This document shows, in pieces, positions 12,595 through 32,345 of a stretch of DNA of 32,427 bases. The stretch spans positions 1 through 32,427 of the forward strand of contig NZ_PDDM01000041.1 in the NCBI RefSeq assembly GCF_002914585.1, written 5' to 3'. The position numbers and the translations under genes are program-made. This stretch comes from Pseudanabaena sp. BC1403. Its GTDB lineage: Bacteria; Cyanobacteriota; Cyanobacteriia; Pseudanabaenales; Pseudanabaenaceae. The stretch's first letter is position 1, and each line of letters starts with the position of its first letter. The notes below the pieces were generated by a model. It had not been told where the DNA came from, searched no databases, and saw only the letters and a program-made list of their open reading frames with translations.

Positions 12595-12686
12595 TTTTAA
12601 GATACTCCTGATTTATCTAAATAAAGACAACTACTTTTCTAAGATAGTCGTAAATCTTTCCTGATCTCAACGAAAAGATTAGTCAA

Positions 12687-12935: not shown

Positions 12936-12940
12936 TTTCC

Positions 12941-15802: not shown

Positions 15803-15819
15803 GAGAATATTACAAAAAG

Positions 15820-15840
15820 TATGATAAATTATATGATAAA
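15820..15840. promoter_or_regulatory. Tandem TATGATAAA boxes in a divergent promoter region
   Basis: TATGATAAA occurs at 15820-15828 and again at 15832-15840, a 12-bp period, inside the AT-rich stretch between the methylase start (minus) and the mazE-like start (plus). A third partial copy (AATATG) follows. The boxes resemble -10 elements and may bind the ribbon-helix-helix antitoxin as an operator. This is inference from position. Confidence 0.35.
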
Positions 15841-15890
15841 ATATGCAAGACAAGTAAATCTAAAGATTTTTTTATTTTTCCTCTGCCCTT

Positions 15891-16145
15891 ATGAATCAAT
15901 TACAAGGAAAGCAGCGCGTTACAGTCACCATTGATGCCAAATTACTCAGTGCAGTAGATCGGCTATCGCAAAATCGCTCGGCGGCGATCGAAGAAGCTTT
16001 ACATTTATGGCATAGGCAACAAATTGAAGCCCAACTGCAAAGATTCTATACAAATCGTAATTCCCATAGCCTTCAAGAAGAAGAACAATGGGCGCAAGCA
16101 ACCCAAGATAAAGCGATCGCTAGTTGGGAAAATGAGGGATCTTAG
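15891..16145 (+). CDS. Ribbon-helix-helix antitoxin (MazE-like partner)
   Basis: An 84-aa protein. The N-terminus QRVTVTIDAKLLSAVDRLSQNRSAAIEEALHLW has the strand-helix-helix pattern of ribbon-helix-helix DNA-binding antitoxins. The charged C-terminal half (LQEEEQWAQATQDKAIASWENEG) would wrap the toxin. It is 5 nt upstream of the MazF-like gene on the same strand. It probably represses its own promoter, perhaps through the repeats at 15820-15840. No good Shine-Dalgarno precedes the ATG. The pair lies on the opposite strand to all surrounding genes. Confidence 0.85.
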   Translation: MNQLQGKQRVTVTIDAKLLSAVDRLSQNRSAAIEEALHLWHRQQIEAQLQRFYTNRNSHSLQEEEQWAQATQDKAIASWENEGS

Positions 16146-16150
16146 CAATT

Positions 16151-16504
16151 ATGAGTGATTTCCCGCAGCAAGGCACAATCTATTTAGCCAAAGCACTAAA
16201 GCAAGCAGGTGACACCAAAAAACGCCCCGTTCTTGTTGTCTCTGTAGATATCCGCAATCGCCATGCCTCAACGGTTCTAGTCGTGCCATTTTCATCAGAT
16301 ATTACCGCCTCAGCAGGTAATCCTTGCCGCATTCTCATCCCTGCTGGTACAGGCGGATTAGAGAAAGCCTCAGTAACGATGGGCGATCTAATTACCACTG
16401 TGCAGAAAAGTTATCTAGAACGTGGTCCTTACGGCAGTATTGATAGTCAGTTGCTCCAGCAGGTGCTAAAAGGCGTACAGATTGCTATGGGTATTTATGA
16501 GTAA
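16151..16504 (+). CDS. MazF/PemK-family endoribonuclease toxin
   Basis: A 117-aa toxin with the MazF/PemK (CcdB-like barrel) pattern: QGTIYLAKA at the start, KRPVLVVSVDIRN, STVLVVPFSSDI, a GGLEKASVTMGDLITTV segment and a C-terminal helical LLQQVLKGVQIAMG. Family members cut single-stranded RNA at short motifs. The opening usually reads GDIwlv-lnPt; here it is GTIYLAKALKQAGDTKKRPV, a common cyanobacterial variant. It follows the antitoxin gene by 5 nt and ends only 17 nt from the convergent Uma2 gene. The pair might guard the defence locus from loss. Confidence 0.87.
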   Translation: MSDFPQQGTIYLAKALKQAGDTKKRPVLVVSVDIRNRHASTVLVVPFSSDITASAGNPCRILIPAGTGGLEKASVTMGDLITTVQKSYLERGPYGSIDSQLLQQVLKGVQIAMGIYE

Positions 16505-16521
16505 TTGATTGGCAAGTATTA

Positions 16522-17085
16522 TTAAAACTCCACATCTTCGTAAATTGCAGCGATCGCGCATTCAAAATCAATGCTGGCAAACTGCACCAAATCACCTTCT
16601 CCATAGGGTGTTAACTCCCACTTGCCCCGATCGTTAAGCCGAAAAGCCTCAACACCAATACTTTCTGAGCCAACCAAAACATATTCACTCAAGCTGGATA
16701 ACTGTCGATAACGGGCAAACTTACCACCGCGATTGTATGCCTCCGTACTAGGTGACAACACCTCAATAATCAGCTTGGGATAAAATACCGCCTTAGCAGA
16801 CTTGCGATCTCGATCGTCACAGGTCACTAATAGGTCAGGATAGAAAAACTCTCCACTAGGCGAAATTCCGACCTTTGCATCAGAACCCAGTACACGACAG
16901 TTTTTCCCACGCAAATGCGGACGCAGCAAAGAAATCAAATTCGCCGCCACCATACTATGAGCGATCGTTCCACCCGCCATCGCAAATACATCGCCGTTGA
17001 TATATTCGTAACGAATTTCTTGCCTAGCTTCCCATTCAAAATATTCATCGGGCGATAGCTTGTGATAATCAGATAAAGCAATCAT
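16522..17085 (-). CDS. Uma2-family (DUF820) putative endonuclease
   Basis: A 187-aa protein with the Uma2 hallmarks: [24 protein letters not shown] at the start, [15 protein letters not shown], then a PD-(D/E)XK-like core with [10 protein letters not shown] and [11 protein letters not shown], and a [13 protein letters not shown] helix-strand. These proteins are extremely numerous in cyanobacteria, usually as scattered single copies, and their role is poorly known; a DNA endonuclease is predicted from the fold. It sits 49 nt downstream of the 254-aa gene and is convergent with the MazF-like gene. Whether it belongs to the defence operon is uncertain. Confidence 0.88.
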
Positions 17086-17134
17086 AATTTTGACCTCAGA
17101 AAATTAGTACATGGATTTATCATGCATAAGCATT

Positions 17135-17899
17135 TTAGTCATTCTCTCCTTTCCCCTTATTGCTAGATTGACCAAAGAAGAATCCTAGTACAATAAGTAA
17201 TGTATTGTTGAGTATCTCAGGGGTTTTTGCTTTATCACAGAAAATTCCTAACAGTTGAAATCCAATTATCAGAACTATAATTAACGCTCCTATTAACGTA
17301 GCTACGGACTCCTTGGCTAAAATTCTATCCAAGTATTTCATTTTATTATTATTTTCTATCTCCTTCTCCTGTAAGTCCAACTCGCGTCGTTTTATCTCTT
17401 GCTCAAAAGAGTTTCTATTTGTATAGAACTCACCAAGTAATTTCTGGTTCTCTATCAAATCTTCAAGAGATTTTACCGTTTGGTTAAAAGTTTGTGCGTT
17501 TATATATGTATTCTCTGGAGATTCGTTGAATTGCTCTTGAATTAAACGAATCTCTTCTATGCTCAATAAGTTAATTCGATCTAAAATCAATCTTTCTAAC
17601 TCGAAAAATCTCGAAGAGATATAAATCTTTGGCTTTTTACGAAATACGGTCAGAGGAATGTTGAGATCTGAAAAATTATTTGGATCAGATTGGAAATCTT
17701 CTAATTTTGCATAGCTCTTTTTAAGATCTGCAAGATTATATTTCTCTATACTTTCTTCATTTAAACCAAGTTTGGAAAGCTTTTCTCTTAATTCTCTGGA
17801 ATCAGGAACATCAGCAATATCTGACATAAAAACCATATCCTTAGAAACGGGGTAGGAAGAATCACTTCCTTTATAAGATTTTCTGATGTATTTAGTCAT
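17135..17899 (-). CDS. Hypothetical coiled-coil protein with two C-terminal membrane segments
   Basis: Not a family that can be named. It has 254 aa. Residues 1-160 are charged and probably helical, with an LxKLGLNEESIEKYNL segment. A coiled coil rich in Glu/Lys/Arg spans about 165-195. Two hydrophobic stretches follow at about 199-220 (TLIGALIIVLIIGFQLLGIF) and 228-244 (LLIVLGFFFG), ending in a short polar tail. The base composition is more AT-rich than the flanking genes. It starts 20 nt after the 142-aa gene stop and so is probably in the DUF499 operon. A membrane-anchored sensor or effector in phage defence is one possibility; nothing in the sequence proves it. Confidence 0.7.
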   Translation of the reverse strand: MTKYIRKSYKGSDSSYPVSKDMVFMSDIADVPDSRELREKLSKLGLNEESIEKYNLADLKKSYAKLEDFQSDPNNFSDLNIPLTVFRKKPKIYISSRFFELERLILDRINLLSIEEIRLIQEQFNESPENTYINAQTFNQTVKSLEDLIENQKLLGEFYTNRNSFEQEIKRRELDLQEKEIENNNKMKYLDRILAKESVATLIGALIIVLIIGFQLLGIFCDKAKTPEILNNTLLIVLGFFFGQSSNKGKGEND

Positions 17900-17919
17900 A
17901 ATAATTAGATTTTTTCTAG

Positions 17920-18348
17920 TTAACTACCCAATAATATCCGAATTGCCTTCAACGCATTGCCTTTATTTCCGTTGGACACCTTAGCAAACCAATAATGCGC
18001 CTCCTCATTACTCATTGCGGTCACACCACTGGCAATATTAGCGATCCGATCCTCCTTCGACAGCGGCTGCACCGTTTGAAATAGCAAAGCCAAACTCACC
18101 CCTGACTCTTCATCAAGGACATAGGGCGCTTGGCGATCGCATTTCAAAGTTTTTGGATCGTACTTATTTGCTTTCAATGCTGCATAGATCGCCTGTCTAG
18201 TCAGCACCAACGCATTACCCTTGAGCTTACCGATTCGCTTTGCCGCAGGGCGCTTTTTCTCACCTGCTTGCTTATAAGCACATTGGTATAGCTCTAAGGC
18301 AAAATTATTGTTATCTGTGGGTACAACTCTTAGTTGAAACTCTTGCAT
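17920..18348 (-). CDS. Hypothetical 142-aa protein coupled to the DUF499 ATPase
   Basis: Family not recognised. A small basic protein: a beta-like N-terminus (QEFQLRVVPTDNNNFALELYQ), a lysine-rich central part (GEKKRPAAKRIGKLKGNAL), then two helical segments (RQAIYAALKANKYD and MSNEEAHYWFAKVSNGNKGNALKAIRILLG). Its ATG overlaps the stop of the DUF499 gene (TAATG), so its translation depends on that gene and it is likely a dedicated partner. The basic middle part could bind nucleic acid, which is inference only. No Cys clusters, signal peptide or membrane segment. Confidence 0.75.
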   Translation of the reverse strand: MQEFQLRVVPTDNNNFALELYQCAYKQAGEKKRPAAKRIGKLKGNALVLTRQAIYAALKANKYDPKTLKCDRQAPYVLDEESGVSLALLFQTVQPLSKEDRIANIASGVTAMSNEEAHYWFAKVSNGNKGNALKAIRILLGS

Positions 18349-21300
18349 TAGTAACTTACCCTCGCTGTTAGAGATAGGCGATCGACAGGATTACGCAGTA
18401 AAGCTTGTTGTAAGATTACCAACTCATTACCATCAGTGGCGATCGCAGGTTCAAATGTAAATGTTAGCTTGAGACTCACATTAGCTCTAACTCCCTCAGT
18501 ATTTAAAAGAGCATTAACAGGATTCAAGAAACCTTGAAAACCACGCAATCCACCTTGATAATCTAAACGCACAAACTGCTTGTCCATCTGAATCGTTGCC
18601 TTCTGGTCAATCTCAAAGGTCAGTTTACCGAGCAACGGGAAAGATGTCGTAATCTTGCGATAGTCCATCACTTGATCCACCGTGATTTCGATCCTCTGAA
18701 TGTTTTTAACCTTGTAATCAGAACAGCGATCGCTAAATCCTGCAAACGCAGCATTGACAGTTCCAGACAGATCAATCGTTTCAGGCTTTACTTCAAAAAT
18801 TGAAGGTGCATCATGTCCATTTGTCGCTGAACCCTTGCCAGTTGGAGTTTCATAGGAAACGATCGCGGCTCTAGTTTCCTGCTCTGCGGTTTCCCCATTG
18901 CCATAGTCAGCCACAATTTTAAAATTCGTGGTTTGACTAATTTGCACCTGATGATTGTCCGATGGTAAAAATTCACCAGCGATCAATATCCCATCTTGAT
19001 AAATCCTTACTGATAAAGCACCTTGCGATCGCCACCGTAAATTAACAGTTTTTGCTAATTCACTACTGGGCATCACCTGAGCAGACAACTCGATCACACG
19101 CGGCTCAGGTGGCTTGAGAATACCACGCCGATATAATTCCATGCGATCGGAAAATTCAATTGTGTCTGGTAGACTTGGCAACTTACCATCATCACCACGA
19201 ATATAAACCTTAGCACCAACTTTTAAATCCCATTGACCTTCCTGTATACCTTTACGGACGGTTTCTCTTAGTTTGGGAATATCCGCATCAAGCAACATCT
19301 GTAATCCTAGATTTTTGGCAAATTCTTCTTTTAAGGCTCTTGTTGTCCAATGCTCTATTCCTGCTAACCAAACCTTTTGCAGAATGTAAGCAGGTGCAAA
19401 TGCTCCCGCATCTTCTAAACGAATTTTTTGACAATCCTTTAAAGACTTGAGAATCACATCCTGTTGGTTTTTATTGCCTTTGACATCACTTGATGACTCC
19501 GCAGGTAAAGTGAAATGGAGCAATCCTTTCGGTGCTTTGACTGGATCGTTAGTTGGATAAAAAAGATGGCGATAGGTATTTGTTAAGGCAACTCTTACAT
19601 CTAGGTCTTTGATACCACCTCTTTCACGCAATTGCTTACGCTGATTTTCTGATAAGTCCTCTTGGCGATTTGGTGACTTCAAAATGTTTTGAATGGCAAG
19701 ATGCTCCTTAGTAATGTCGATCGCCCGATCTAATTCCTGCTTATTTGCCACCAAGAAAAGCAACCGATTCCGAAATGTGCGGAACTTACCAGACTCTCCA
19801 GTGTTATTAAAGATTTGCTCAACTAGATTAGGTGCAACATCGGTTGAAGCATTCACGGTTCCTTGGTCAAAGTCAATTACACAGAGAGCAATATCATCAG
19901 GTTTATCGTCAACATCTCCCGAACTTTCAGGACTAGCAACTAAGGTAAAGACTTTGTTGGCAAAAATACTATCGCGACGCGATCGCAGATGGTCTTTCGC
20001 TGTAAGATTACCAATCTGCTCTTTCTCTTCCGCAATAATTTTATTGATCGATGGTTCTTCTTTAAAACGTGCGATCGTCGTAATCGGATCGATATCCAGA
20101 TACCATGCCACGCTCGTTAATCGATCTAACACAGGTTCAATATAACTAATCTCAACCGTAGGCATCAGCAAAGCTAAATTTAGCTCGGCTCGGCGGATAC
20201 CTGCGGAAGTACCTTGATTAATGGAATGCAAGAAGATTGTTCTCGCTACCCATGTCGCAAAGGGCGACTTACCTGCTGCCTCCCACTCTTGATCGTGTAT
20301 TTGGGCATGGGCAAGTTTCCCATCAGTATTAAAAATATCTGCCTGAATTGGGCTTCGCATCAATGGACGCTCTAATCGTGACGTAAATTCACTGGTCACA
20401 CCTTCATCTAAACCAATGGGAATATGATGTGGATGAATCATCGGTATCCATACCGACATATCTTGCCAGAGATGCCTTACCACCATTGCAAGTAGTCGCA
20501 ACGCCCCTCTTGTACGCTGAAAATTGGGAATCGATGCAATTTTTTTGGTTAGTAAGTCAAACAATTCTGGCGAAAATGGATAGCTGGACTGCAATACTTG
20601 AGCATGGTTCGCATCTTTGCACCCATCAGGTAGATTTAGGCGACTGGATTTATAAACGCTTAAATAATCCTTTGCCGCAATATCAGCAGCTTTATCGTTA
20701 ATACTTTGAAAAATCCTCTGCTTAACAATGTTGTAAATTTCTATATCTGTGCTGGGACTAAGTACCCTTTCTTGTCGAGCCGACGTTTGCAATGCTTCCT
20801 TTAGATCGTTGGTTTCTGCGCCAAAGGTATCGGATATCGAAGCTAGAGTGTAGACAAATACAATGTTGTTACAGGCTGCCGTTAAGTCCATCAGTGTAAA
20901 TAGAAATGCAACGACTTGTTCAGATAGATCGCTTTTTCCCACTGCGATCGCTTTAGCACGACGCAAATATTGAGCAATTTCATCAAGAATGATTACCGTC
21001 GGTTCTTTTTTGGTCAGCTTTTCGATGACAACTGTTCCTGGGCTAACTTTCTGCTCATCCGAACCTCTAAGCAAGCTATAGCCTTCTACCCCGCCAATTT
21101 GATAAGCGATTTCACCCCACAGTGTATGTACTCTTATCCCTGACTCTTCATGCAATACACCATTTACAGGGTCAAGATCTTGACAGGCGATCGCCGCTAC
21201 TTGGATCGGGCGATCTGGAATAATTGTAATGTCATTTACAAATCTATCTAACCCGCTTATTAGTCTTCCATTTTTCGCAATATGCCAAATCGCTATTTCA

Positions 21301-21572
21301 TCGTGGGTCTTACCTCCTCCAAAACTGGTTTCTAAGCGAATTACAGGCGAACCAGTGTCTGCACCTGTTAAACGTCCAAATACTTCAGATATAAGAGTCT
21401 TGAGTCCATTTGTCGGAAAAGTATTCGCAAAAAAAGTATTTGGATCTTGATAAACTAAGGGCGCATTACCATCCACCACTTGCTTTAATTTTGCAGCAAA
21501 TACATCCTCTGATAAGTTACCGCCAAGCACCTCATCGCGTGGTACACAGGTTTCAAAAATAGATCGGAGCAT
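18348..21572 (-). CDS. DUF499 ATPase of an Hma-like defence system
   Basis: A 1074-aa P-loop ATPase. The opening MLRSIFETCVPRDEVLGG and the AAKL/PLVYQDPNTFFANTFPT segment are typical DUF499. Walker A is FGGGKTH (Lys88) and Walker B is TVIILDEIAQYLR (Asp197, Glu198). A long middle part with FSPELFDLLTKKIASIPNFQRTRGALRLLAMVVRHLW follows, and the last 250 residues are beta-rich. The longest open frame begins 30 codons upstream at 21662; those residues (Cys- and Tyr-rich) do not look like the family, so 21572 is preferred, though no clear Shine-Dalgarno is visible. It heads the minus-strand defence block and supplies the ATPase of the helicase-methylase-ATPase set. What it acts on is unknown. Confidence 0.9.
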   Translation of the reverse strand: MLRSIFETCVPRDEVLGGNLSEDVFAAKLKQVVDGNAPLVYQDPNTFFANTFPTNGLKTLISEVFGRLTGADTGSPVIRLETSFGGGKTHDEIAIWHIAKNGRLISGLDRFVNDITIIPDRPIQVAAIACQDLDPVNGVLHEESGIRVHTLWGEIAYQIGGVEGYSLLRGSDEQKVSPGTVVIEKLTKKEPTVIILDEIAQYLRRAKAIAVGKSDLSEQVVAFLFTLMDLTAACNNIVFVYTLASISDTFGAETNDLKEALQTSARQERVLSPSTDIEIYNIVKQRIFQSINDKAADIAAKDYLSVYKSSRLNLPDGCKDANHAQVLQSSYPFSPELFDLLTKKIASIPNFQRTRGALRLLAMVVRHLWQDMSVWIPMIHPHHIPIGLDEGVTSEFTSRLERPLMRSPIQADIFNTDGKLAHAQIHDQEWEAAGKSPFATWVARTIFLHSINQGTSAGIRRAELNLALLMPTVEISYIEPVLDRLTSVAWYLDIDPITTIARFKEEPSINKIIAEEKEQIGNLTAKDHLRSRRDSIFANKVFTLVASPESSGDVDDKPDDIALCVIDFDQGTVNASTDVAPNLVEQIFNNTGESGKFRTFRNRLLFLVANKQELDRAIDITKEHLAIQNILKSPNRQEDLSENQRKQLRERGGIKDLDVRVALTNTYRHLFYPTNDPVKAPKGLLHFTLPAESSSDVKGNKNQQDVILKSLKDCQKIRLEDAGAFAPAYILQKVWLAGIEHWTTRALKEEFAKNLGLQMLLDADIPKLRETVRKGIQEGQWDLKVGAKVYIRGDDGKLPSLPDTIEFSDRMELYRRGILKPPEPRVIELSAQVMPSSELAKTVNLRWRSQGALSVRIYQDGILIAGEFLPSDNHQVQISQTTNFKIVADYGNGETAEQETRAAIVSYETPTGKGSATNGHDAPSIFEVKPETIDLSGTVNAAFAGFSDRCSDYKVKNIQRIEITVDQVMDYRKITTSFPLLGKLTFEIDQKATIQMDKQFVRLDYQGGLRGFQGFLNPVNALLNTEGVRANVSLKLTFTFEPAIATDGNELVILQQALLRNPVDRLSLTARVSY

Positions 21573-21734
21573 AGATTCAGTAGTGCAAGATATAGTTAAC
21601 GATTGGTAGGCTTTTAGCTGTATATAACAATATGTATTCATAACACACTTGTTTCCTAGCATACGCTAACTGAGCTTAAACCTCACATCTGAGGAAGCCT
21701 TAGCGATTTCTATTAGGTTATTTCTGTCCTAAAT
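21573..21734. promoter_or_regulatory. Divergent intergenic region, DUF499 operon versus 163-aa gene
   Basis: A 162-bp spacer separating the first gene of the defence block from a plus-strand gene. Both transcripts should start here. A small inverted repeat CCTCA-CATC-TGAGG lies at 21681-21694 and could be an operator. No convincing -35/-10 pair was found on either strand. Confidence 0.35.
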
Positions 21735-23357: not shown

Positions 23358-24161
23358 ATGCCAAAAGAACAAATAGTCATAGGAATCATTGCAAATGCAG
23401 GCGGAGTCGGAAAATCCACACTTGCTGTGCATTTAGCATACGAGCTAGCCAAGCATCACATCTCAGTGGGATTAATCGATCTAGATCCCCAACGCGCACT
23501 TGATGTTTTCTGTGGTTTACCATCTACCGATTTAGAGCACTCCATTGTTGGAGTGCTCTCCAAAGAATTCACAGGCAACTGGGCGTTAGTTCCCGCATGG
23601 GGACATCCCAATATCGAAGTCTGCCAAGGGCATCCCAGTATGGCTAAACTAGCAGACGATCTAGTGATTCGTCGCCGAGGGGAATATGCACTAGCCGATC
23701 GCTTAAAGAGCCACCCACTCAGACATGATGTAGTGATATTAGATTGTCCAGCGACAATGGGGATGATTTGTGAAAATGCGATCGCAGCAAGTACAGGATT
23801 ACTCGTTCCAATTCAACTAGAGATGAAATCAATCTCTGGAGTTGCAGATTTAGTGGAATGGACGATAGCTATTTGCGACGAACTAAAGCTCGATCCCCGT
23901 CCTCAAATATTTGGACTAGTGCCAAGTCTCTATGACAGCAGTCGGGCGATCCATCGTCAATATCTCCAACAGTTGCCAGAAATAACCGAGCAATTAAGAA
24001 TCAAGCTATATCCACATATACGCGATTCATCGGAGTTTAAGAACTCAAGTGCTAACGGTTTACCACTACAAAAATATCGCCCAAACCATCCTGCTTGCAG
24101 TGATTTTCAGGTGATCGCAGAAGACATCATTAAACTAGTCAAGGCAGGAGCAAAAATCTAA
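23358..24161 (+). CDS. parA: ParA-family partition ATPase
   Basis: A 267-aa ParA/MinD-type ATPase that would drive segregation of the replicon with ParB. The Walker A region reads ANAGGVGKSTLA (Ala14-Gly15-Gly16-Val17-Gly18-Lys19-Ser20), Walker A' is LIDLDPQRALD and Walker B is VVILDCPATMG. In canonical ParA proteins the residue at position 14 is the signature lysine of KGGVGKT; here it is alanine. ICENAIAASTGLLVPIQ and EMKSISGVADLVEWT are normal for the family. There is no long N-terminal helix-turn-helix, so it is a short (type Ib-like) ParA. It overlaps parB by one base and has no clear Shine-Dalgarno; the palindrome just upstream probably regulates it. Confidence 0.93.
   Translation: MPKEQIVIGIIANAGGVGKSTLAVHLAYELAKHHISVGLIDLDPQRALDVFCGLPSTDLEHSIVGVLSKEFTGNWALVPAWGHPNIEVCQGHPSMAKLADDLVIRRRGEYALADRLKSHPLRHDVVILDCPATMGMICENAIAASTGLLVPIQLEMKSISGVADLVEWTIAICDELKLDPRPQIFGLVPSLYDSSRAIHRQYLQQLPEITEQLRIKLYPHIRDSSEFKNSSANGLPLQKYRPNHPACSDFQVIAEDIIKLVKAGAKI
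23534..23559. repeat. Perfect inverted repeat inside parA
   Basis: AGAGCACTCCA and TGGAGTGCTCT are 11-bp perfect arms around a TTGT loop within the parA reading frame, encoding LEHSIVGVLS. In the mRNA this makes a stable hairpin about 180 nt into the gene. Confidence 0.7.
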
Positions 24162-25279
24162 TGGGTAAGATTCCAGCAATTTCACAAAGATTTACAGGTG
24201 CAATTCAGGCAACTGACCAAGCCCAGCGCATTGCCGAACTGCAAACAGAAATTGAAAAGCTCCGATCTTCGCAGTCTCCAGCATTAGAAAAACAGATCGA
24301 AGCGCTAAGAATAGAGCTAAAAGAACAGTCAGGTGAAAAAGATATTGAAGTAAAAAAGATCCAAGCAAACCCCAATCAACCTCGGCAGACCATAACCAAT
24401 GAAAGCATTCAAACCATTGCACGAAGCATGGAAAAAGATGGTCAGATTACCCCATTAATCGTTATCCCCCAGGATGAAACCTATCTACTATTGGATGGAC
24501 AACGCCGTTGGGAAGCGGCAAAAATCTTGGGCTGGAAAACATTGAGATCGGTCATTGCCATCATGCCCAATGACCTGCATCGTAGATCTTTACTTACTTT
24601 CATTCATCATGAAGATCTTAACCCTCTAGACAAGGCTGAAGCAATTCTCAAAGAAGTCTCAAGTATCACAAGTATGAGTACTGAGGGAATATTAACCCTC
24701 CTCTCAACTGTGTTAAGGCGTTTAGAAAGACAAAAACAAGCCAGTCAGCTCACAAATCTAGTTACAGTTACCCAAGAAGAACAAAAGACGGGACTGCAAA
24801 ATCTAGATGTTAGTGACGATGAAGAGAAGCTACTTTTAGCATTACTCGATTTGGCTCTAAACCCTACTTCAGTCAAGGCAAACCTTATGCCCATGCTTTC
24901 ACTACCCAGTGATCTAAAACAAGCAATCAGAGAACAAGGCCTTAAAGGCGCACATGCTTTGGCACTTTCAGTACTATCAGCCAAAACACTAAAAATCTCC
25001 GAAGCAAAAGCGACTAAAGAACGCATTCAAACAACAGAACAGGTAATCCAAGAGGATTTGACAGTCGCCAAGACAAGAGAACTTATATCTCAAGTCAAAT
25101 CAAAATATTTAGAAGAAAATAACGTTTCATCCAAGGAGTTTATAGCTATAAATCGCAGTGTAGAAAAACTTTCTAAAATTAATCTCACTAATATAGAACC
25201 TCAACAACTAATTGATATACGCGCAATCCTCCAGAAAAAGCTTGAAGAGATCGAGGCTGCTCTTGAGCAAGGACAATAG
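24161..25279 (+). CDS. parB: ParB-family partition protein
   Basis: A 372-aa ParB/Spo0J-like centromere-binding protein. Residues 18-58 form a coiled coil (QRIAELQTEIEKLRSSQSP). The ParB/sulfiredoxin-like domain follows with ANPNQPRQTI (70-79), IARSMEKDGQITPLIV and LLDGQRRWEAAKILGW (113-120 core). The usual GERR motif that contacts nucleotide is GQRR here. LNPLDKAEAILKEV and the following helices are the DNA-binding part. The C-terminus is helical, with a dimerisation-like end (LQKKLEEIEAALEQ). Its start overlaps the parA stop (TAATG), showing a single operon. It presumably binds the GTCGTATTT palindromes upstream of parA. Confidence 0.92.
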   Translation: MGKIPAISQRFTGAIQATDQAQRIAELQTEIEKLRSSQSPALEKQIEALRIELKEQSGEKDIEVKKIQANPNQPRQTITNESIQTIARSMEKDGQITPLIVIPQDETYLLLDGQRRWEAAKILGWKTLRSVIAIMPNDLHRRSLLTFIHHEDLNPLDKAEAILKEVSSITSMSTEGILTLLSTVLRRLERQKQASQLTNLVTVTQEEQKTGLQNLDVSDDEEKLLLALLDLALNPTSVKANLMPMLSLPSDLKQAIREQGLKGAHALALSVLSAKTLKISEAKATKERIQTTEQVIQEDLTVAKTRELISQVKSKYLEENNVSSKEFIAINRSVEKLSKINLTNIEPQQLIDIRAILQKKLEEIEAALEQGQ

Positions 25280-25369: not shown

Positions 25370-28300
25370 CTACGACCTCATAGCAATAAGAGCAAGCACA
25401 GAAAATAAACGATTGCTGTTATTGCTAGATAACTTAGTAACTACAGACTGATGCAAATATTGAGGGATATGCTCAGCAAAGAACTCAAAAATACCTTCTA
25501 GAGTAGTTTTCATCGGCATAGCATCATTTAAAAATCTTTCAGTTACACTAGCCCAAAAGTCTATTTGCTCATATTCTGCGTCATTGAATTGTAGATCTAG
25601 ATTTTCATCCAAATTTTGGATCGGGTTGCTATATAAGAACTTTAATAGCGCGTCGATCCAGTCAAAATGGTGCCGAAATTTACCCCATGAAATGTTCAGC
25701 CAATCTGCAATTTGCCTTTGAGACATCGAAACTAAATCAATCCCTTCAGACAGAGCTTCATAAAAACGCTGCGAGACTTCGGTTCTAAATATTTCCTTTT
25801 TACTCATTGCCTTAGGCGTAATGTCACTAGCTTTAACCTGAATATGAGGAATATCTCCTAAATCAAAATCAGATAAAAAGTAAATTACATCGCCCTCTTG
25901 AAAACGATTACCAAGCTTACGCCCAAAACATTGTCGAACATTTGCCAAAATATGGCGATCAATAAAGTCCGTAAAAGCTTGGTCTTCTTCTTCAGGATGA
26001 AACCCAGTTAAAACCACAAACTCAGCCTTAAGTGCGGCGATATTCTGGCAAGGAGTGCCAGTCACGACAAAGGTTTTTGCATCCTTAAAATCATTAGAGC
26101 CACGCGAGTCTCGAAACCAAGCACCATCAGCATCAAACTTTTTAAAATCAATGCTTTTGGTGGTCGGATCAATAGCGCATAAGTGCGAGGCGATCGCTTC
26201 AGCCTGACGAGTTTGTTCATTACCACGTTGCATTCCCAATCGTCCGATATCAGCAACTTGATAAATAGTCGGCATCTGCGAGATATCTGCTTGTTTAACC
26301 ACATGAATATGAGATGCCAACTTCATCTCTAAATGTGATTGGTTAATTGTGGCATCAAGATAAAGATTTGATGCAGACTTATTCGCTATTTCACGCAAAC
26401 GAGCATCGAGGAGCGAAACCGTAAGCTTTCCATTCTGAATATGTAGATCACCATATTGAATCTTGCCAGATAAAATATCCAGAAATTCTGAGAGCCATTG
26501 CTTTAATACCTCACGCTCGATCCTTTGCTCGAACTCAACCGAATGAAGTGTAGTAGCACTCTTGAGTAAAGAATTTAACCTAGCCAGCTCACGCTTGTCT
26601 TTACCCTTTGCATGATCAAACTCAGAATCAGCAATTCCATCAACCGTATCAAGAATCGATAAATCTGGTTCAAGTACATTTGCTAGTAGAGAGCTATCAA
26701 TTATTTCAGGGATTGCTTCCTTAATTTTGTGATAATCCAAACCAAATCGAGACTTATTTTCTAACAAATGATGTAACTTATTGAGCAGACTGATCGCTTG
26801 TTGTCTATTCTCAATATCAGTACGTGAAAGCTTTGCGATCGCCGCATCAATATCGGCGCGATCGACCTGAATTTGACGCATAGTTACAATGCTTTCTCCT
26901 ACTTCTTCCCAAACAAGCAAAGTCTTTGAATAGTCATAATCATCAGGACTGGGCAAACTAGCAGGATGAGAACGTAGGATATTTGACTTAAAAGCGATTG
27001 CTCGTTCATGTCTAAAGCCAAAACCATCACCACTAGAATGACGACAAGCATTGAGTAAAGGGCAAGTCTCGCAGACGATACGAGTATCAAAAATAGCCTT
27101 ATTCCGTAAGGCTGCGATCGCTCCTGTGCGGGAGCAATTAGACTTAGTATGCAGATCATCACGATAGTTAGCCCGCCGCAACTTACCGTTTTTATCAGTC
27201 AAGCCACGATGACGAGCAGGCAGCATTTGCCATTCTTGTAAAGTCTCTGTAGTGACATTACGAGAATCATTCGAGACATAAATAATTTTTTCAACACCAT
27301 TTAGTAACTCAGGACGCAACAAACCTGCATCATGACTTTTGCCCGTACCCGTCGCCGAAGCATCCAAAACATGTTTATGGGCTTGAAGTGAATTACGCCA
27401 AGTTTCCAGTCTCGTGCCAGATTTATACTCCAAAGAAGGATTAGTGACAGTGACTTGATGCGATCGCGCAAAGCCCTTAGCTTTAGGCTTAGGAATCAAC
27501 TTATCTTGTAGCCATTGAAAAGGAGAAGACTTAGTTCTTGGCTTGTATTTAGCAATTTCAAAGAACTGTGCGATCGTTAAAAGCTGGATATTTGAGCGAT
27601 CGGGCAATTCATCGATGTCATCATCATCTTTGGTGAACTGCCCCCACCACAATACGTCGATGTTATAGCCAAGCTCAACTAGAAAATCTAAATTATTTTC
27701 ATGGCGACGCATTACCTGTTTGTTAACAACGTCACCAGCATCGATCGCATATTCCAGTCTAGTTAATGTTGGACTAGCGCTAATATCTTGCAAATAGCTA
27801 ATTAAAGTTTCTTTGCAAGATACAAACTGACCGCTAGAAGCACCGATAGCAGAACATTTACGAATCTTAGCTGCAAGAAAAGGTTTTACGCCTGTCCCCT
27901 CAACCAAAACTACTCGATCTAATATCCTAGGCAAGTAAGCATAAAAAGCAAGAGGTAGCTCGCCATTTTGTTGTCGAGCATCAATCCCATATGGTTTGTG
28001 CCAGCGATAGCGGCCAGAATCAGTATCTCTCAGTCGAATCTGAGCGCCTAAAATTTGTCCTTGGGGGTTCCGAATTGGGACGACATAGCCAGCCTTCATC
28101 GACTTTGCGCCCAAATTTTCAATTTCAGGTTCGGTCAATCTGCGTCGTTGAAGATCGGATATGTCAGATTCATTGAGATTAAGCTTTTGAAAATAAACCT
28201 GAAATAGACGATCTCTCTGAGTAGCATCAGGTAATTTAGCAAATCGTTCACGTTCAGATTTTTGCTGGGCTGCCTTAAGTCTGCGGTTAGTTTCTTGTCT

Positions 28301-28546
28301 TTGTTGACGCTCGGTTTCAGACTCTTGGCGGTCTCTAACATATTTCCCAGCGTAGTAACTACCTTTCGTTTCGCCAAGATAATGCCAACCTGACAGATCT
28401 AAATTAGTAGGATAGGTCATGCACAGGACAAGATCATCACTGATAATCCGACATTTACCTTTGACATCATCGCAAATTGGACAAGGTCGATCCGATCTTG
28501 CGGGTGAAAATTTGCCACTAGAATACTGATTGTTTTGGAGGCTCAT
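25370..28546 (-). CDS. CyRepA-like plasmid replication protein
   Basis: A 1058-aa protein that matches cyanobacterial plasmid replication proteins of the CyRepA type (large, with a DUF3854/Toprim-like region and a helicase part). Visible features in order: an N-terminal four-Cys element (CPIC...C...LCM, Cys22, Cys25, Cys32, Cys42); a Toprim-like VVLVEGTGVKPFLAAKIRK near residues 210-230; Walker A ASATGTGKSHD (Lys403) and a LLVWEEVGESI acidic motif; motif III-like FVVTGTPCQN; RQCFGRKLGNRFQEGD; and a C-terminal helix-turn-helix (SQRQIADWLNISWGKF). Together these suggest primase-helicase activity at the plasmid origin. A strong Shine-Dalgarno (28553-28560) supports the start. The family name is from memory and should be confirmed. 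Confidence 0.85.
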   Translation of the reverse strand: MSLQNNQYSSGKFSPARSDRPCPICDDVKGKCRIISDDLVLCMTYPTNLDLSGWHYLGETKGSYYAGKYVRDRQESETERQQRQETNRRLKAAQQKSERERFAKLPDATQRDRLFQVYFQKLNLNESDISDLQRRRLTEPEIENLGAKSMKAGYVVPIRNPQGQILGAQIRLRDTDSGRYRWHKPYGIDARQQNGELPLAFYAYLPRILDRVVLVEGTGVKPFLAAKIRKCSAIGASSGQFVSCKETLISYLQDISASPTLTRLEYAIDAGDVVNKQVMRRHENNLDFLVELGYNIDVLWWGQFTKDDDDIDELPDRSNIQLLTIAQFFEIAKYKPRTKSSPFQWLQDKLIPKPKAKGFARSHQVTVTNPSLEYKSGTRLETWRNSLQAHKHVLDASATGTGKSHDAGLLRPELLNGVEKIIYVSNDSRNVTTETLQEWQMLPARHRGLTDKNGKLRRANYRDDLHTKSNCSRTGAIAALRNKAIFDTRIVCETCPLLNACRHSSGDGFGFRHERAIAFKSNILRSHPASLPSPDDYDYSKTLLVWEEVGESIVTMRQIQVDRADIDAAIAKLSRTDIENRQQAISLLNKLHHLLENKSRFGLDYHKIKEAIPEIIDSSLLANVLEPDLSILDTVDGIADSEFDHAKGKDKRELARLNSLLKSATTLHSVEFEQRIEREVLKQWLSEFLDILSGKIQYGDLHIQNGKLTVSLLDARLREIANKSASNLYLDATINQSHLEMKLASHIHVVKQADISQMPTIYQVADIGRLGMQRGNEQTRQAEAIASHLCAIDPTTKSIDFKKFDADGAWFRDSRGSNDFKDAKTFVVTGTPCQNIAALKAEFVVLTGFHPEEEDQAFTDFIDRHILANVRQCFGRKLGNRFQEGDVIYFLSDFDLGDIPHIQVKASDITPKAMSKKEIFRTEVSQRFYEALSEGIDLVSMSQRQIADWLNISWGKFRHHFDWIDALLKFLYSNPIQNLDENLDLQFNDAEYEQIDFWASVTERFLNDAMPMKTTLEGIFEFFAEHIPQYLHQSVVTKLSSNNSNRLFSVLALIAMRS

Positions 28547-28552
28547 TAATTT

Positions 28553-28560
28553 CCACCTCC
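28553..28560 (-). promoter_or_regulatory. Ribosome binding site of the rep gene
   Basis: GGAGGTGG (minus strand) lies 6 nt before the rep ATG at 28546. It is one of the few strong Shine-Dalgarno sequences here and fixes the start. Confidence 0.8.
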
Positions 28561-28740
28561 ATTGAGCTTGCTAGTGGCGATCTTTTTATAGATCTGCCGA
28601 AGCAAGACTTGCAAATTTAAAAACATCTAAATTGTCCTGATTGTAAGGGTTGTAGCGATTTCAATCAGGAAACGGAAAGACTTTTTAGAACAGTTCAAAA
28701 ATTATTTTTGCCAAATTTAAAAAATTTGCAGCAAAAAGTG

Positions 28741-28768
28741 TTGCTAAATTCATATCTTGCGTTAAGAT
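28741..28768 (+). promoter_or_regulatory. Candidate promoter of a small RNA, with overlapping palindrome
   Basis: TTGCTA and TAAGAT with a 16-nt spacer make a good sigma-70-type promoter on the plus strand. The inverted repeat ATATCTT-GCGTT-AAGATAT (28752-28770) covers the -10 box and could be an operator. Confidence 0.45.
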
Positions 28769-28774
28769 ATAAGA

Positions 28775-28886
28775 AAGCATTGAACAAATTCTTCGCTCGT
28801 CAAAGCAAAACTCGTCCGTTTCCATTTATTCGATTAAGTACCTTCGGGTCATCAAGAAGCTAGTGATTGCAGTCGCTGGCTTTTTT
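28775..28886 (+). ncRNA. Candidate small RNA opposite the rep leader
   Basis: A predicted RNA of about 110 nt from the promoter at 28741-28768 to an intrinsic terminator at 28857-28886 (10-bp stem AAGCTAGTGA/TCGCTGGCTT including G-U pairs, loop TTGCAG, six T). A small ACC-TTCG-GGT hairpin lies at 28840-28849. It runs opposite to rep and would pair with the rep mRNA leader if that starts upstream of 28890. In Synechocystis pSYSA a related rep gene is controlled by an antisense RNA, which makes this plausible. No direct evidence of transcription. Confidence 0.45.
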
Positions 28887-29131
28887 GATGTGGAAGGGGA
28901 AAATTAGTAAGGGGATCTCCTGTAGATAAAAAACCTCAGACTAAGCATACATCAATCGCTCAAGATCTGAAACATAAAATTTAAAAAATTTATCTCTAGA
29001 CATTTTGAACAGTTTGTAGGCATCAATAACCGCTATTTGCGAAACTATTTTTACCCAATATCCAATCCCAACATTTGCTATTGATAAGAGGCGATCGCTA
29101 AATTGTAAGTCCTTTCCAAAAAAAATAAGAG

Positions 29132-29148
29132 GCGACGCGATGCGCCGC
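29132..29148 (-). terminator. Rho-independent terminator of the HAD gene
   Basis: On the minus strand, GCGGCGC-ATC-GCGTCGC forms a 7-bp stem (one G-U pair) followed by CTCTTATTTTTTTT. It begins 4 nt after the HAD stop codon. It shares the GGCGCATCGCG core with the protease terminator at 173-191. Confidence 0.85.
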
Positions 29149-29151
29149 TTT

Positions 29152-29910
29152 TTACTTTTGCAGTAATAATTTTGCCAACTCAGAAAAACCAGCAAACTCA
29201 GAAGCACGAGTAACGTATTGGGGTAAATGCAGCATTTTGTCTTGATAATGATGAATATTTGCCACACCGACCGATATGGGAAATTTAGTAGCATCAAACA
29301 TCGTCTCATCATTGGGACTATCGCCAACGGTTAGGACTTGCTGCAAATTGATTTCAGGAAAATGATTTTTGAGCACTGTATCTAAGCCAGTTGCTTTATC
29401 TTGGTGCAGTGGTTTGATATGACATTGAACATTGCTGTAAGTGAAACTCCAGCCCATTTGATCACATAGCGAAGAGATGGCTTGAATTTCATCGGTTGAT
29501 AAATCATTGACATCAAAAGTCCAATCGGTAATACGGAACTGATTATCAGAGGAAGTCTGAAGGTTAGGAAATTTCTGTTTAATGTGATGAAAAGTATTTT
29601 CTAGAAGAATGCGATGTCTAGATAAATTAGGAATCGAAGAGAGTAAATCTTGTTGACCATTGGGCTGTAAAAACAAACCGCCATTTTCCGAGATCGCCCC
29701 TGCAACAGGTAAATAATTTACCAAAGTACTGACCCACCCCGCCGAGCGACCAGTCACCAATAAGACTTTAATTCCTGCTGATTGTAAATCCAGAAGAGTC
29801 GAGATGAAATTAGAAGAGAATTTCCCATTTTGGGTAAGAGTGCCATCAACATCAGAAGCAATTAAACGAATGTCGGACAAATCAGCTTGATTGAGATTGA
29901 GCAGAGACAT
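29152..29910 (-). CDS. HAD-superfamily (IIB type) phosphatase
   Basis: A 252-aa predicted sugar-phosphate or related phosphatase of the Cof-like HAD-IIB group. Motif I is LIASDVDGTLTQNG with Asp20 (nucleophile) and Asp22; motif II is VLLVTGRSAGW; a cap region with ISENGGLF follows; Lys in HQDKATGLDTVL is motif III; motif IV is VGDSPNDETMFDATKFPISVGVANI. The set is complete, so the enzyme is probably active, but the substrate cannot be told. It is a single gene with its own terminator, between rep and the RNA-polymerase-like operon. No link to replication or defence is evident. Confidence 0.9.
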   Translation of the reverse strand: MSLLNLNQADLSDIRLIASDVDGTLTQNGKFSSNFISTLLDLQSAGIKVLLVTGRSAGWVSTLVNYLPVAGAISENGGLFLQPNGQQDLLSSIPNLSRHRILLENTFHHIKQKFPNLQTSSDNQFRITDWTFDVNDLSTDEIQAISSLCDQMGWSFTYSNVQCHIKPLHQDKATGLDTVLKNHFPEINLQQVLTVGDSPNDETMFDATKFPISVGVANIHHYQDKMLHLPQYVTRASEFAGFSELAKLLLQK

Positions 29911-30008
29911 AAAGAAGAAATGAAACTAAAACCAGAATACAGCTAACGTGAGACTATTGGAAAATCTAGCGATTCGCTGGTGAAGACAAAACTACCATCA
30001 ACGGAGTA

Positions 30009-30037
30009 TTGACAATTCCAGAATTTGTACGAACAAT
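30009..30037 (+). promoter_or_regulatory. Candidate promoter of the RNA-polymerase-like operon
   Basis: A perfect TTGACA (30009-30014) and AACAAT (30032-30037) with a 17-nt spacer. It lies about 100 bp before the 71-aa gene and runs in the same direction. The operator-like repeats at 30040-30094 begin directly after it. Confidence 0.55.
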
Positions 30038-30039
30038 AT

Positions 30040-30094
30040 TCTCAATCATCAATTTAGAGAAATTGATAGAATGTAATCTCTCAATCATCGATTT
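30040..30094. repeat. Operator-like direct and inverted repeats downstream of the promoter
   Basis: TCTCAATCATCAATTT (30040-30055) and TCTCAATCATCGATTT (30079-30094) are direct repeats 39 bp apart. ATCAATTT-AGAG-AAATTGAT (30048-30067) is a perfect inverted repeat within the first. Their place just after the -10 box suggests a repressor site. Confidence 0.5.
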
Positions 30095-30138
30095 CCCAAA
30101 CCCGTTGTATTCAATCCTAAGCACTTAAAGAGGAACTA

Positions 30139-30354
30139 ATGAGAAACAATATCCAATCCAAGATTGACGCAGGCTATACCTACGACGAACTACTGAGCGA
30201 AGGCCTAGCCAGCTTTGATGACATCGCCCGTTATGAATCACAGTATTCCCTGTATGACGAAGATGCAGAACCAAAGCCCAAAAAGACAAAAGCCAAACCG
30301 AAAACACAAGAAACTAAACCAAATAAAGAAGCAGAAATTGACTTTGAATTCTAG
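30139..30354 (+). CDS. Hypothetical 71-aa charged protein upstream of the RNA-polymerase-like gene
   Basis: Not recognised. The N-terminal half is acidic and helical (IDAGYTYDELLSEGLASFDDIARYESQYSLYDEDAE). The second half is a Lys/Pro/Thr-rich tail (PKPKKTKAKPKTQETKP) ending in DFEF. AGAGGA lies 7 nt before the ATG. The next gene starts 14 nt after the stop, so they are in one operon. Small size, charge asymmetry and constant position suggest a partner or regulator of the large protein, perhaps like a small polymerase subunit, but this is speculation. Confidence 0.7.
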   Translation: MRNNIQSKIDAGYTYDELLSEGLASFDDIARYESQYSLYDEDAEPKPKKTKAKPKTQETKPNKEAEIDFEF

Positions 30355-30368
30355 CGAGAAATGACAAT

Positions 30369-32345
30369 ATGGAATTTAGACAGATTGACCTGAAGACAGG
30401 GCAAGAGTTACCATTGCCTCCGAAAACTATTGAGCATAGCTACCTCGAACTGAAGATCTGGAAAGACATTGAGCCAAGTAAACTCGCCGTTGGCAAGATG
30501 TACGATGGCATCACTGAGCGAGACATCGAGCGACTGCAAGAGCAAGGACTGTACCTAATTCTTGCCAATGGAAGAACTGCTTATTTTGGCGATCGCGAGA
30601 TTTCTGAAAAGGTAAGCCAAGAAATCTTCACTAATCACAGCGATGCTGTCGCCTATGGTAGTTTGCCCGTATCTGAAGCCAAGACCTCCATATTCAAAGA
30701 GCAAGCCAGAATCCTGATCATTGATGATGAAACCCTAAATAAAGATCCAGCCACTGGAACTTACCAAGCGGATTGGGGAAAGCAAACCATCACCATAAGC
30801 AATGGCATCACCATTAGCGATAAAGCAATGGGCTTAATCGCCAGCAAACTGGGAGACTGCTATAGCCTGATCTCACCAGATCTCGCGACCCAACTGCAAG
30901 CCGAACCAAATCGCCCATTTCAATATCGCGCCGCCGTACCTGAATGGCATGGCGTGATTAAAGGCACATGCCGAGCCAGTTTGCTCTGTCAAGCCCTAGA
31001 AGTCGATGGGATTATTGCCAAATCAAGCATCAAAGGCGACAACAAAACTACTACCACTGGAATCCATGAGATTAGTCTATTCTGGTCAAGAAAAGAAGAT
31101 GCTAAATACACCGAACAAAAACTAGGTACTCAAGCTTTAGTCTTCTTCCCTGAAGGAGTCCAAGCAGACGTATTGCCTAAGCTGAAAATCAAAGCCGAAC
31201 GCTTAGCTGAAGCCCAATCCGACCCGCGTAAGATAGCGCAACTGTATATCGAGCGCCACGAAAAGCGCCTACAGCAGAGGCAAGAAGCAACAGGAGATCG
31301 CGCTAACATTACCCAAATCATCGAGCCAGAACTAGCACTAGAACTGGGATTAAGCCCACAAGAAAACACAACAGCCAATGAAATTAAACGAGAGATAGTA
31401 GCCTCACCTAACGAAGAATACCAAGATTGGCTCTATGACATCCTCAAAACTGACCTGATTGAAGGCGGTCATTGCCAAGTATTAGAAATGGAAGATATCG
31501 CCAAACGCCTGCGAGAATTCCTGCAAAGTGAATGGCAAGAAGTCGCCACAGGAGGCGTTTACGTCCCCAGTGGCATCGCTCAACCCCACAACCAACTGCA
31601 AGAAGGCGAAGTCAGTTTTACAGGACTACCCGATGGATCTGAAGTTGCTATCTATCGCAGTCCCGTGGCTAATGCTGCCAACTTTGACGTATTTACGAAT
31701 AACCTCACGGTTCTGCGTGAATTAGATCCTGAAGCCTATAGGCAGAGAGGAGTTTGCTATCTCAATCCCAACGATGCCAAACGACTAGTCATCGACTTTG
31801 ACGGCGATCGCGTGGGGATAATTCCTAGTCAACTAACACCCGAACAACAAGCCAGTTCCCAGAAAATTATTGAGCAATATCCAACCCTAATCCAAGAAAT
31901 AATTGACAAGAATCTGCCAGAGAACAAACCAATTCAAGTCGAAAAAGAAAAGAAGATTCCCCGTGATGTTGCCAATGGATTTGCCACCCTAGCTAGTGCA
32001 GCCGTTAATGCTGCTGATAACCCCACAGGCAGAGTCGCCAATCTGGGCATGAGGCTAGAAGCCTTGCGATGGGATGCCCAATATATACCAGAAGCCGAAA
32101 GAAGCGAATACTTGCAGGACATTGGCAAACACTTCCAAAAGCTACTCGCCGAAGACAAAGAGGATAAGAAACCATTTCGTATTCTCAATGACGCATGGCG
32201 TGACCAAATTGTCGAAATTAGTCAAATTGCCAGTACCATCCCCAAACTCCCCGAACCAGAACAAGCAACTGCCGTAACTACAGGTTTAGCCAAAACCGAG
32301 AGACTACTTTGGAATCTAGAAAGCCTCGCAGCCGTGAACTTATAG
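30369..32345 (+). CDS. Putative single-chain RNA-polymerase-like (double-psi beta-barrel) protein
   Basis: A 658-aa protein with no assigned family. At 470-500 it reads RLVIDFDGDRVGIIPSQLTPEQQ: DFDGD (476-480) plus the following hydrophobic-x-P-x-x-L-x-x-E-x-Q spacing closely follows the bacterial RNA polymerase beta-prime catalytic barrel ([20 protein letters not shown]), where the three Asp bind Mg. IYRSPVANAANF (428-439), 40 residues earlier, corresponds in place to LNRAPTLH of beta-prime. A second segment, PEWHGVIKGTCRAS (Lys198), may be the Lys-bearing first barrel seen in two-barrel polymerases (RdRP, YonO, phage enzymes). The rest is helical. It could make or process RNA or DNA for the plasmid or phage defence, or have lost activity. 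It overlaps nothing and follows the 71-aa gene. Confidence 0.6.
   Translation: MEFRQIDLKTGQELPLPPKTIEHSYLELKIWKDIEPSKLAVGKMYDGITERDIERLQEQGLYLILANGRTAYFGDREISEKVSQEIFTNHSDAVAYGSLPVSEAKTSIFKEQARILIIDDETLNKDPATGTYQADWGKQTITISNGITISDKAMGLIASKLGDCYSLISPDLATQLQAEPNRPFQYRAAVPEWHGVIKGTCRASLLCQALEVDGIIAKSSIKGDNKTTTTGIHEISLFWSRKEDAKYTEQKLGTQALVFFPEGVQADVLPKLKIKAERLAEAQSDPRKIAQLYIERHEKRLQQRQEATGDRANITQIIEPELALELGLSPQENTTANEIKREIVASPNEEYQDWLYDILKTDLIEGGHCQVLEMEDIAKRLREFLQSEWQEVATGGVYVPSGIAQPHNQLQEGEVSFTGLPDGSEVAIYRSPVANAANFDVFTNNLTVLRELDPEAYRQRGVCYLNPNDAKRLVIDFDGDRVGIIPSQLTPEQQASSQKIIEQYPTLIQEIIDKNLPENKPIQVEKEKKIPRDVANGFATLASAAVNAADNPTGRVANLGMRLEALRWDAQYIPEAERSEYLQDIGKHFQKLLAEDKEDKKPFRILNDAWRDQIVEISQIASTIPKLPEPEQATAVTTGLAKTERLLWNLESLAAVNL

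Follow-up and report, generated by a model that had tools for sequence, protein, structure and literature searches.

A conserved antisense-RNA and leader-peptide module predicted upstream of plasmid rep genes in Pseudanabaena

The comparison of rep upstream regions in the genus Pseudanabaena leads us to propose, as the probable reading, that the sequence analyzed here carries an exchangeable antisense-RNA and leader-peptide module for plasmid copy control and incompatibility, which module would contain a switch formed by a long-range helix between two leader elements designated U and D. The comparative basis, as displayed by the aligned sequences themselves, consists in a conserved RNA, covariation in its helices, variability of its loops, the overlap of a leader ORF with rep, the covariation of U with D, and the presence of the module ahead of two classes of Rep protein. 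A broader view, to which we would give an even chance, is that the module constitutes an autonomous RNA cassette, distributed across the genus and addressed by the combination of its two loops, wherein the antisense RNA competes for an activating helix, and that the cassette moves between unrelated initiators; if that view were true, one cyanobacterial cell could keep six or more related plasmids by means of it. By the window we designate the whole stretch of DNA analyzed, which is an entire contig of 32,427 bases and contains the following features:

28741-28746, + strand: -35-like hexamer TTGCTA of the antisense promoter (mean column identity 0.97)
28752-28770, no strand: palindrome ATATCTT-GCGTT-AAGATAT over the antisense -10, with conserved arms and a spacer that differs at some loci
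28763-28768, + strand: -10-like hexamer TAAGAT of the antisense promoter, separated from the -35 by a 16-nt spacer
28775-28886, + strand: predicted antisense RNA of about 112 nt, the 5' end being placed from the -10
28792-28808, + strand: antisense stem-loop SL1, with a variable loop (28797-28804) and a stem that is bulged in the window copy
28840-28849, + strand: ACC-UUCG-GGU tetraloop hairpin of the antisense RNA, from sequence and comparison
28854-28886, + strand: terminator stem-loop plus U6 (helix 28854-28865 / 28874-28885; T at 28881-28886)
28866-28873, + strand: terminator loop, the most variable of all the segments measured
28918-28965, - strand: conserved stretch lying upstream of the antisense target, a candidate for the rep promoter or 5' region
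28815-28823, - strand: U element GGAAACGGA of the rep leader, within the antisense target and covarying with D
28668-28676, - strand: D element TCCGTTTCC of the rep leader, which pairs with U and shares bases with the 5' arm of the S hairpin
28635-28670, - strand: S hairpin TCCTGATTG / CAATCAGGA, whose 3' arm includes AGGA (28635-28638), the Shine-Dalgarno of the leader peptide
28546-28626, - strand: leader-peptide ORF of 26 codons (MFLNLQVLLRQIYKKIATSKLNGGGN), whose stop TAA overlaps the rep ATG (TAATG)
28537-28560, - strand: rep-SD hairpin, in which GGAGG (28556-28560) pairs with the post-start codons CCTCC (28537-28541)
25370-28546, - strand: rep gene (1058 aa), CyRepX-like by homology to a pSYSX protein
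24161-25279, + strand: ParB gene, adjoining rep
23358-24161, + strand: ParA gene, adjoining rep

The initial annotation had proposed that a promoter-like pair, an operator-like palindrome over the -10 box, and a terminator stem with six T define an RNA of about 110 nt running opposite to rep. Each of those elements can be read directly in the window—TTGCTA-16-TAAGAT at 28741-28768, the palindrome at 28752-28770, and the terminator with its conserved arms ending at 28886—and a predicted RNA of 112 nt directed against the rep leader is strongly supported by the comparison. From the one sequence alone, without conservation, the claim would be weak: the hexamers of the antisense promoter match the consensus at only 8 of 12 positions; a scan for consensus promoters and terminators listed neither the antisense promoter nor its terminator; promoter-like sites numbered 2 versus 4.8 expected from shuffles and terminator-like sites 1 versus 1.6; and the fold of 28776-28890, with a minimum free energy of -27.8 kcal/mol (z -2.28), was equaled by 5 of 200 shuffled sequences. 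A search of 28300-29200 against Rfam returned no match above threshold, the sub-threshold IS128 (E 0.97) lying outside the RNA. The locus rises above chance because it is conserved. The promoter, the terminator, and the hairpins between them are maintained across the fetched upstream regions, with mean column identities of 0.95-0.97 for the antisense-promoter elements, 0.92-0.96 for the terminator arms, 0.63 for the SL1 loop, and 0.48 for the terminator loop. The -35/-10 pair along with the 5-bp core of the palindrome arms was found in 51 of 52 loci, L123 being the one without them, by means of a pattern that left two -35 positions free and admitted spacers of 15-17, the diverged loci L045 and L062 being outside that set of 52.

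With respect to what might bind the palindrome, the exact site occurs only once in the 5.5-Mb genome to which it belongs, so that recognition by a global regulator with a regulon of its own is unlikely; and the arms persist ahead of both Rep protein classes, which circumstance makes Rep itself a doubtful repressor. Further upstream in the rep sense, two conserved segments within 28918-28965 (28918-28936 and 28948-28965, with mean column identities of 0.83 and 0.82) are consistent with a rep mRNA that would span the antisense target. The heptamer GCTAGTG appears both at 28570-28576, near the rep ribosome site, and on the + strand of the terminator stem at 28859-28865, which repetition may be due to chance.

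The covariance model R1 was built from 30 sequences—the window plus 29 upstream regions, out of 32 that were fetched and among which L060 was too short—and recovered 54 copies in 17 of 26 Pseudanabaena genomes, 30 of those copies having built the model and 24 not. The score at the window is partly a matter of construction, the window being one of the 30 rows, and the 22 loci first found through R1 (L105-L126) scored 71-133 bits. The model gave 0 copies in 12 genomes of the same order from outside the genus; in a class-wide sample of 291 genomes from 130 genera it recovered copies in only Pseudanabaena, with stricter filters that may miss weak matches; and nothing was found at the pSYSX locus (the cyRepX1 match ± 2.5 kb, L071). 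At L123, on contig C23 of genome G012, a remnant of the module is present without rep, with a helicase-like ORF of 727 aa and a short transposase-like ORF downstream.

The signature of an RNA was sought in the alignment A2, containing 54 copies (50 of them distinct), which alignment was fitted to the R1 structure and is hence biased toward it. In A2, 98.7% of the helix cells were paired versus 96.3% upon shuffling, and two-sided changes occurred in 6 of the 16 helix pairs, with 0 of 500 shuffles reaching either value and slid registers attaining at most 57%. Whereas the first 30 copies, aligned with MAFFT, showed no two-sided helix change, such changes did appear in this wider, structure-fitted set. 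The variation in the terminator stem among those 30 copies was entirely of the A-U/G-U type on the + strand, corresponding to A-C mismatches on the - strand, and the pairing is therefore kept on the + strand only.

The nearer (5') end of the antisense RNA lies about 229 nt upstream of the rep start, which start the RNA thus does not cover, and control must accordingly work through the leader. Within that leader, and outside the antisense RNA at 28775-28886, the ORF at 28546-28626 has a layout in the rep orientation that consists of AGGA, then an ATG or GTG, and then an open frame through to the rep start codon. The leader stop and the rep start share bases in 49 of the 50 leaders, the stop of L105 occurring a few bases early; the overlaps are of the TAATG/TAGTG type in 26 of the 50 and of the ATGA/TTGA/GTGA type in 23. 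All 49 overlapping start codons are in frame with the downstream rep, and that frame remains open as far as the gene stop or the limit of the fetched sequence. The ORF lengths are mostly 26-27 codons (with values of 20, 25-27, and 30), the frame being kept even in L041 (20) and L040 (30). This predicted small ORF thus appears to be arranged for translational coupling to rep. The best rep-SD hairpin is present in 50 of 50 loci, forming 5-8 of the 8 pairs that a fixed register allows; 18 of 1000 shuffles reached its percentage of paired cells and 322 of 1000 its two-sided changes, so that the support from covariation is modest. The initial annotation had included neither this coupled leader-peptide ORF nor the covarying long-range helix, and both are additions made here on comparative grounds.

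For that helix, 22 distinct U:D pairs from the 50 loci were 91.3% paired versus 88.8% in shuffles, and contained 12 two-sided cells versus 2.8, with 0 of 1000 shuffles reaching either figure and slid registers remaining at or below 55%. Two of the four U:D measures did not exceed the shuffles, namely, the number of pairs with a two-sided change (reached by 270 of 1000) and the number of pair types (1000 of 1000). The S hairpin covaries weakly, having 6 distinct sequences and two-sided changes that 79 of 1000 shuffles reached. At 28815-28823 the antisense RNA carries on the + strand the same letters as D, so that it and D would be rivals for U. According to the ensembles computed with ViennaRNA, the accessibility of the peptide AGGA fell from 0.197 with the target free to 0.027 with the target blocked, being lower in 46 of the 50 loci and showing no drop in the other 4. 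When a block of 12 nt was placed on U alone—one locus being skipped and one duplicate dropped—the accessibility of the leader SD went from 0.208 to 0.024, with a decrease of more than 30% in 47 of 48 loci, whereas seven other 12-nt blocks left means of 0.196-0.233 and lowered the value in 0-6 of the 48. The switch of the window itself is below average (0.10 to 0.02, with 3.4 expected U:D pairs), and several loci have next to no U:D pairing in the folding ensemble.

We propose the following sequence of events, in which the transcription of the RNA, the kissing and its kinetics, the direction of the regulation, and the effects on copy number and incompatibility are what we infer from these comparisons. 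A short antisense RNA, presumably constitutive, would be made from the promoter inside the rep leader and end at its own terminator. The rep mRNA would start further upstream of the antisense target, and its leader would therefore carry the complement of the antisense RNA. Within that leader, U (GGAAACGGA) would normally pair with D (TCCGTTTCC), some 140 nt downstream, and by so doing draw D away from the leader-peptide Shine-Dalgarno, which site would otherwise be held in the S hairpin; translation of the leader peptide would then open the hairpin in which the rep ribosome site is hidden, permitting the synthesis of Rep. As plasmid copies increase, the antisense RNA would kiss the leader through the two variable loops and subsequently cover U, whereupon D would return to the S hairpin, the peptide would go untranslated, and Rep synthesis would drop. 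Since the loops would determine the mutual recognition of the RNAs, plasmids with different loop pairs could coexist.

Among the explanations that would dispense with this switch, one that we hold to be rather unlikely is that the antisense RNA simply blocks the leader sterically near the peptide start, or exposes it there to RNase-dependent decay. CopA of plasmid R1 is reportedly an inhibitor of leader-peptide translation, in work attributed to Blomberg and dated 1992, which precedent speaks for such an effect; here, however, the peptide start lies about 150 nt downstream even of the nearer end of the target, which makes direct masking unlikely, and both the U:D covariation and the result of the blocking test would be left unexplained. 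A transcription attenuation of the kind used by pT181 and pIP501, where binding of the antisense RNA would cause a terminator to form near the antisense promoter and the rep mRNA to end early, seems to us distinctly improbable. A pattern for a hairpin with a U-run (GCAACA..UGCUGC AAAUUUUUU) does match just downstream of the target in 42 of 50 leaders, but in the 41 distinct leaders considered (8 of the 50 having no match to the pattern, and one being a duplicate) that local hairpin is weak, at a mean of -3.6 kcal/mol, and blocking the target shifted its local pairs from only 1.86 to 2.09, with a rise of more than 0.5 in 7 of the 41. The hairpin energy and the blocking result thus make attenuation a weak candidate, and it would moreover account for neither the leader peptide nor the U:D covariation.

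That the leader RNA might instead prime replication, in the manner of ColE1, with the antisense RNA blocking maturation of the primer, has a parallel in the proposal made for the pSYSA pair ssr7036/asRNA1 (PMC9978351); nevertheless, the conserved coupling of a leader ORF to rep, and the covariation of the structures about the ribosome site of that ORF, point to translational control, and we consider priming very improbable. We find it scarcely credible that the conserved feature should be one of the DNA—an origin, an operator, or an iteron-like site—and not of an RNA: the palindrome is conserved and unique in its genome, and an origin may well overlap the region, yet an RNA is indicated by G-U pairing that suits one strand only, by compensatory changes, and by loops that vary on near-invariant stems.

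Regarding the gene under control, the 1058-aa Rep matched no entry in Pfam (E 0.001) or NCBIfam (E 0.01), and those searches gave no indication of a RepA/RepZ-type family. A tblastn search of plasmids yielded 114 records with relatives of the Rep, nine Pseudanabaena plasmids at 62-66% being among the 60 matches listed; and Rep relatives were present in 16 of the 26 genomes of the genus. Among those 60 listed of the 114, the closest recognized relative that has been characterized would be the CyRepX1-type protein at 27957-31322 of pSYSX (25% identity over 89%, E 8e-53), which range corresponds to Slr6031, according to the limits of the fragment cloned in PMC10899382, where autonomous replication is described for Slr6031 and Slr6090; by this homology the Rep is CyRepX-like. 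A kinship with CyRepA1 of pSYSA as the nearest one was considered and set aside, the best Synechocystis match examined among the 60 listed of 114 being to pSYSX; a weaker match on pSYSA may exist as well. The initial annotation had stated that a related cyanobacterial rep gene is under antisense control, and antisense RNAs do exist at cyanobacterial rep genes, but the closest characterized relative recognized among the matches listed is CyRepX1 (pSYSX) and not CyRepA1 (pSYSA), the latter being the one whose antisense RNA was investigated by experiment. The ParA and ParB genes beside rep support the status of the contig as a plasmid.

A blastn search with the leader led to the plasmids ABRG53b and pPg_05, whose downstream gene encodes a protein of 587 aa with no similarity to the 1058-aa Rep either by BLASTP or by a comparison of small profiles (probability 0.6%). 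Thirty-two of the 54 copies of the module precede CyRepX-like genes and 20 precede genes of this other class, which we refer to as Prim-Pol-like, the two remaining copies being L123, where rep has been lost, and L116, at a contig edge. Stated otherwise, 20 of the 22 copies outside the CyRepX set are ahead of relatives of the 587-aa protein, 17 at 70-100% and 3 at 34%, and all 20 of those genes begin 219-235 nt from the first model position of the RNA, the distance in the window being 225 nt. The relatives of the 587-aa protein occur on 66 plasmid records, one of them annotated as a 'replication-related protein'; the family weakly resembles the polymerase domain of LigD (E 0.0026), and one of five members, different from the ABRG53b protein itself, has a similarity to Prim-Pol (E 2.2e-4). 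The 587-aa protein is, on these grounds, likely a replication initiator.

The genes of the window past the leader—those for a HAD hydrolase (88% identical), a 71-aa ORF (97%), and a 658-aa ORF (94%)—have their counterparts in ABRG53b, which plasmid carries the other Rep class (587 aa). Because the flank and the module are the same and the Rep is different, these comparisons point to the replacement of one rep gene by another on a common plasmid backbone. One control region is found ahead of nonhomologous Rep genes, as in the REx-C replicons of Pseudomonas. These three genes (29152-32345 of the window, 4784-8461 of L073, and 4786-8462 of L074) are 85-94% identical, or 68-97% for the 71-aa gene, between the window and the plasmids of the other Rep class. 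Two modules on a single contig were observed in G005 (C3, with L056 and L110) and in G002 (C1, C2, and C4), those on G005 C3 and G002 C1 being placed one ahead of each Rep class, and such contigs suggest multireplicon plasmids. The window contains, in addition, a defense-like cluster at 8804-21662, with an SNF2-type helicase, a PD-DExK nuclease, a DUF1156 adenine methylase, and a DUF499 ATPase, the last two having HmaB and HmaC as their best PADLOC matches; a possible toxin–antitoxin pair at 15891-16504, where a MazE-like antitoxin (E 2.6e-7, below the cutoff) is followed by a 117-aa ORF with no family match; and a subtilisin-like protease at 201-2363, similar to the mycosin type below the family cutoff.

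The 51 usable copies, which exclude L045, L062, and L123 as diverged, contain 38 SL1 loops and 23 terminator loops in 46 combinations. None of the 85 same-strain pairs is identical at both loops, but chance predicts only 0.47 such pairs and 62% of the permutations were as low, for which reason the absence constitutes no evidence of avoidance; the first set of 31 loci had likewise given 0 of 30 pairs, with 0.13 expected. Upon conditioning on backbone identity or relatedness, with L116 also dropped, p was 0.2-0.6, and the sharing of a single loop inside strains was not rarer than chance. Avoidance of identical loops within strains was thus nonsignificant in all three tests, and the same-strain differences are compatible with incompatibility and prove nothing. 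Individual examples are nonetheless on record: L053 and L048 share a contig in one strain and show 98.2% identity once the loops are set apart, yet their terminator loops differ; L057 and L054 belong to two strains and show 98.7% identity although neither loop is the same in both; and in one Pseudanabaena genome 6 of 8 contigs each have one copy, every loop pair being different. Some loops, such as GTTCCAAG and AGGTCGAAGT, recur across both Rep classes.

Searches of the open-licence literature gave no earlier account, for Pseudanabaena, of this RNA, of the leader peptide, or of the module; antisense RNAs at the CyRepA1 and CyRepX genes of Synechocystis have already been published, with other layouts. 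Ohdate et al. (2024; PMC10899382) named CyRepX and describe abundant asRNAs over the CyRepX starts, for which RNAs a role was proposed. The pSYSX genes CyRepX1 and CyRepX2 thus have in common with the present locus a homologous Rep family and an antisense RNA adjoining rep, but their asRNAs, as described there, start about 25 nt inside rep and cover the ribosome site, whereas the RNA predicted here starts about 229 nt upstream, runs away from rep, and covers neither ribosome site. The asRNA1 of pSYSA, described by Kaltenbrunner et al. (2023; PMC9978351), is with respect to ssr7036 likewise a cis-antisense RNA upstream of a cyanobacterial rep and is linked to copy number, which link we infer for the RNA considered here; it covers, however, an ORF of 64 aa, while the antisense target of the present locus does not include the leader ORF of 26 codons, and the Rep of pSYSA is CyRepA1, which protein the authors of the CyRepX study place in a separate clade (PMC10899382). 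The same authors, according to that article, note the coexistence of several plasmids in cyanobacteria, free of incompatibility, and deduce different replication mechanisms; the module suggests another answer to that coexistence, namely, a shared machinery with a different RNA address. Such an address would offer a sequence-based route for predicting compatible Pseudanabaena plasmids, together with naturally occurring RNA parts from which compatible cyanobacterial vectors could be built.

Outside the cyanobacteria, the IncI (RNAI; PMC10724649) and IncFII (CopA/Tap/RepA) systems have a leader-directed antisense RNA, a small coupled ORF, a masked rep ribosome site, and an incompatibility determined by loops; the module resembles them in the arrangement of its small ORF and, by prediction, would do so in the other three properties. 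Their Rep and RNA are, as far as tested, unrelated to those of Pseudanabaena. The activating element differs as well: in IncI it is a loop pseudoknot at the rep site, whereas here it would be a long nested helix that frees the ribosome site of the leader peptide.

Closest in kind would be the REx-C replicons of Pseudomonas (RepJ, RepA-PFP, RepA-RA2, and RepA-Pa), in which, according to Bardaji et al. (2017; PMC5304414), control modules with a putative antisense RNA and a leader peptide have been swapped among unrelated Reps. The likeness, which is one of description, extends to a stem-loop control region, a putative antisense RNA with a variable loop, a leader peptide coupled to rep, and an exchange among nonhomologous Rep families; the bacteria and the Rep proteins are others. 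Incompatibility is demonstrated for REx-C in that work, while the module of Pseudanabaena is known through its sequence; and the REx-C chimeras, according to the same authors (PMC5304414), speak against pseudoknot formation with the vicinity of rep. Pseudanabaena would accordingly be a second lineage, after Pseudomonas, with swapped control and replication modules, the present one being unlike REx-C in having two variable loops, one of which is that of the terminator, and a covarying long-range U:D helix.
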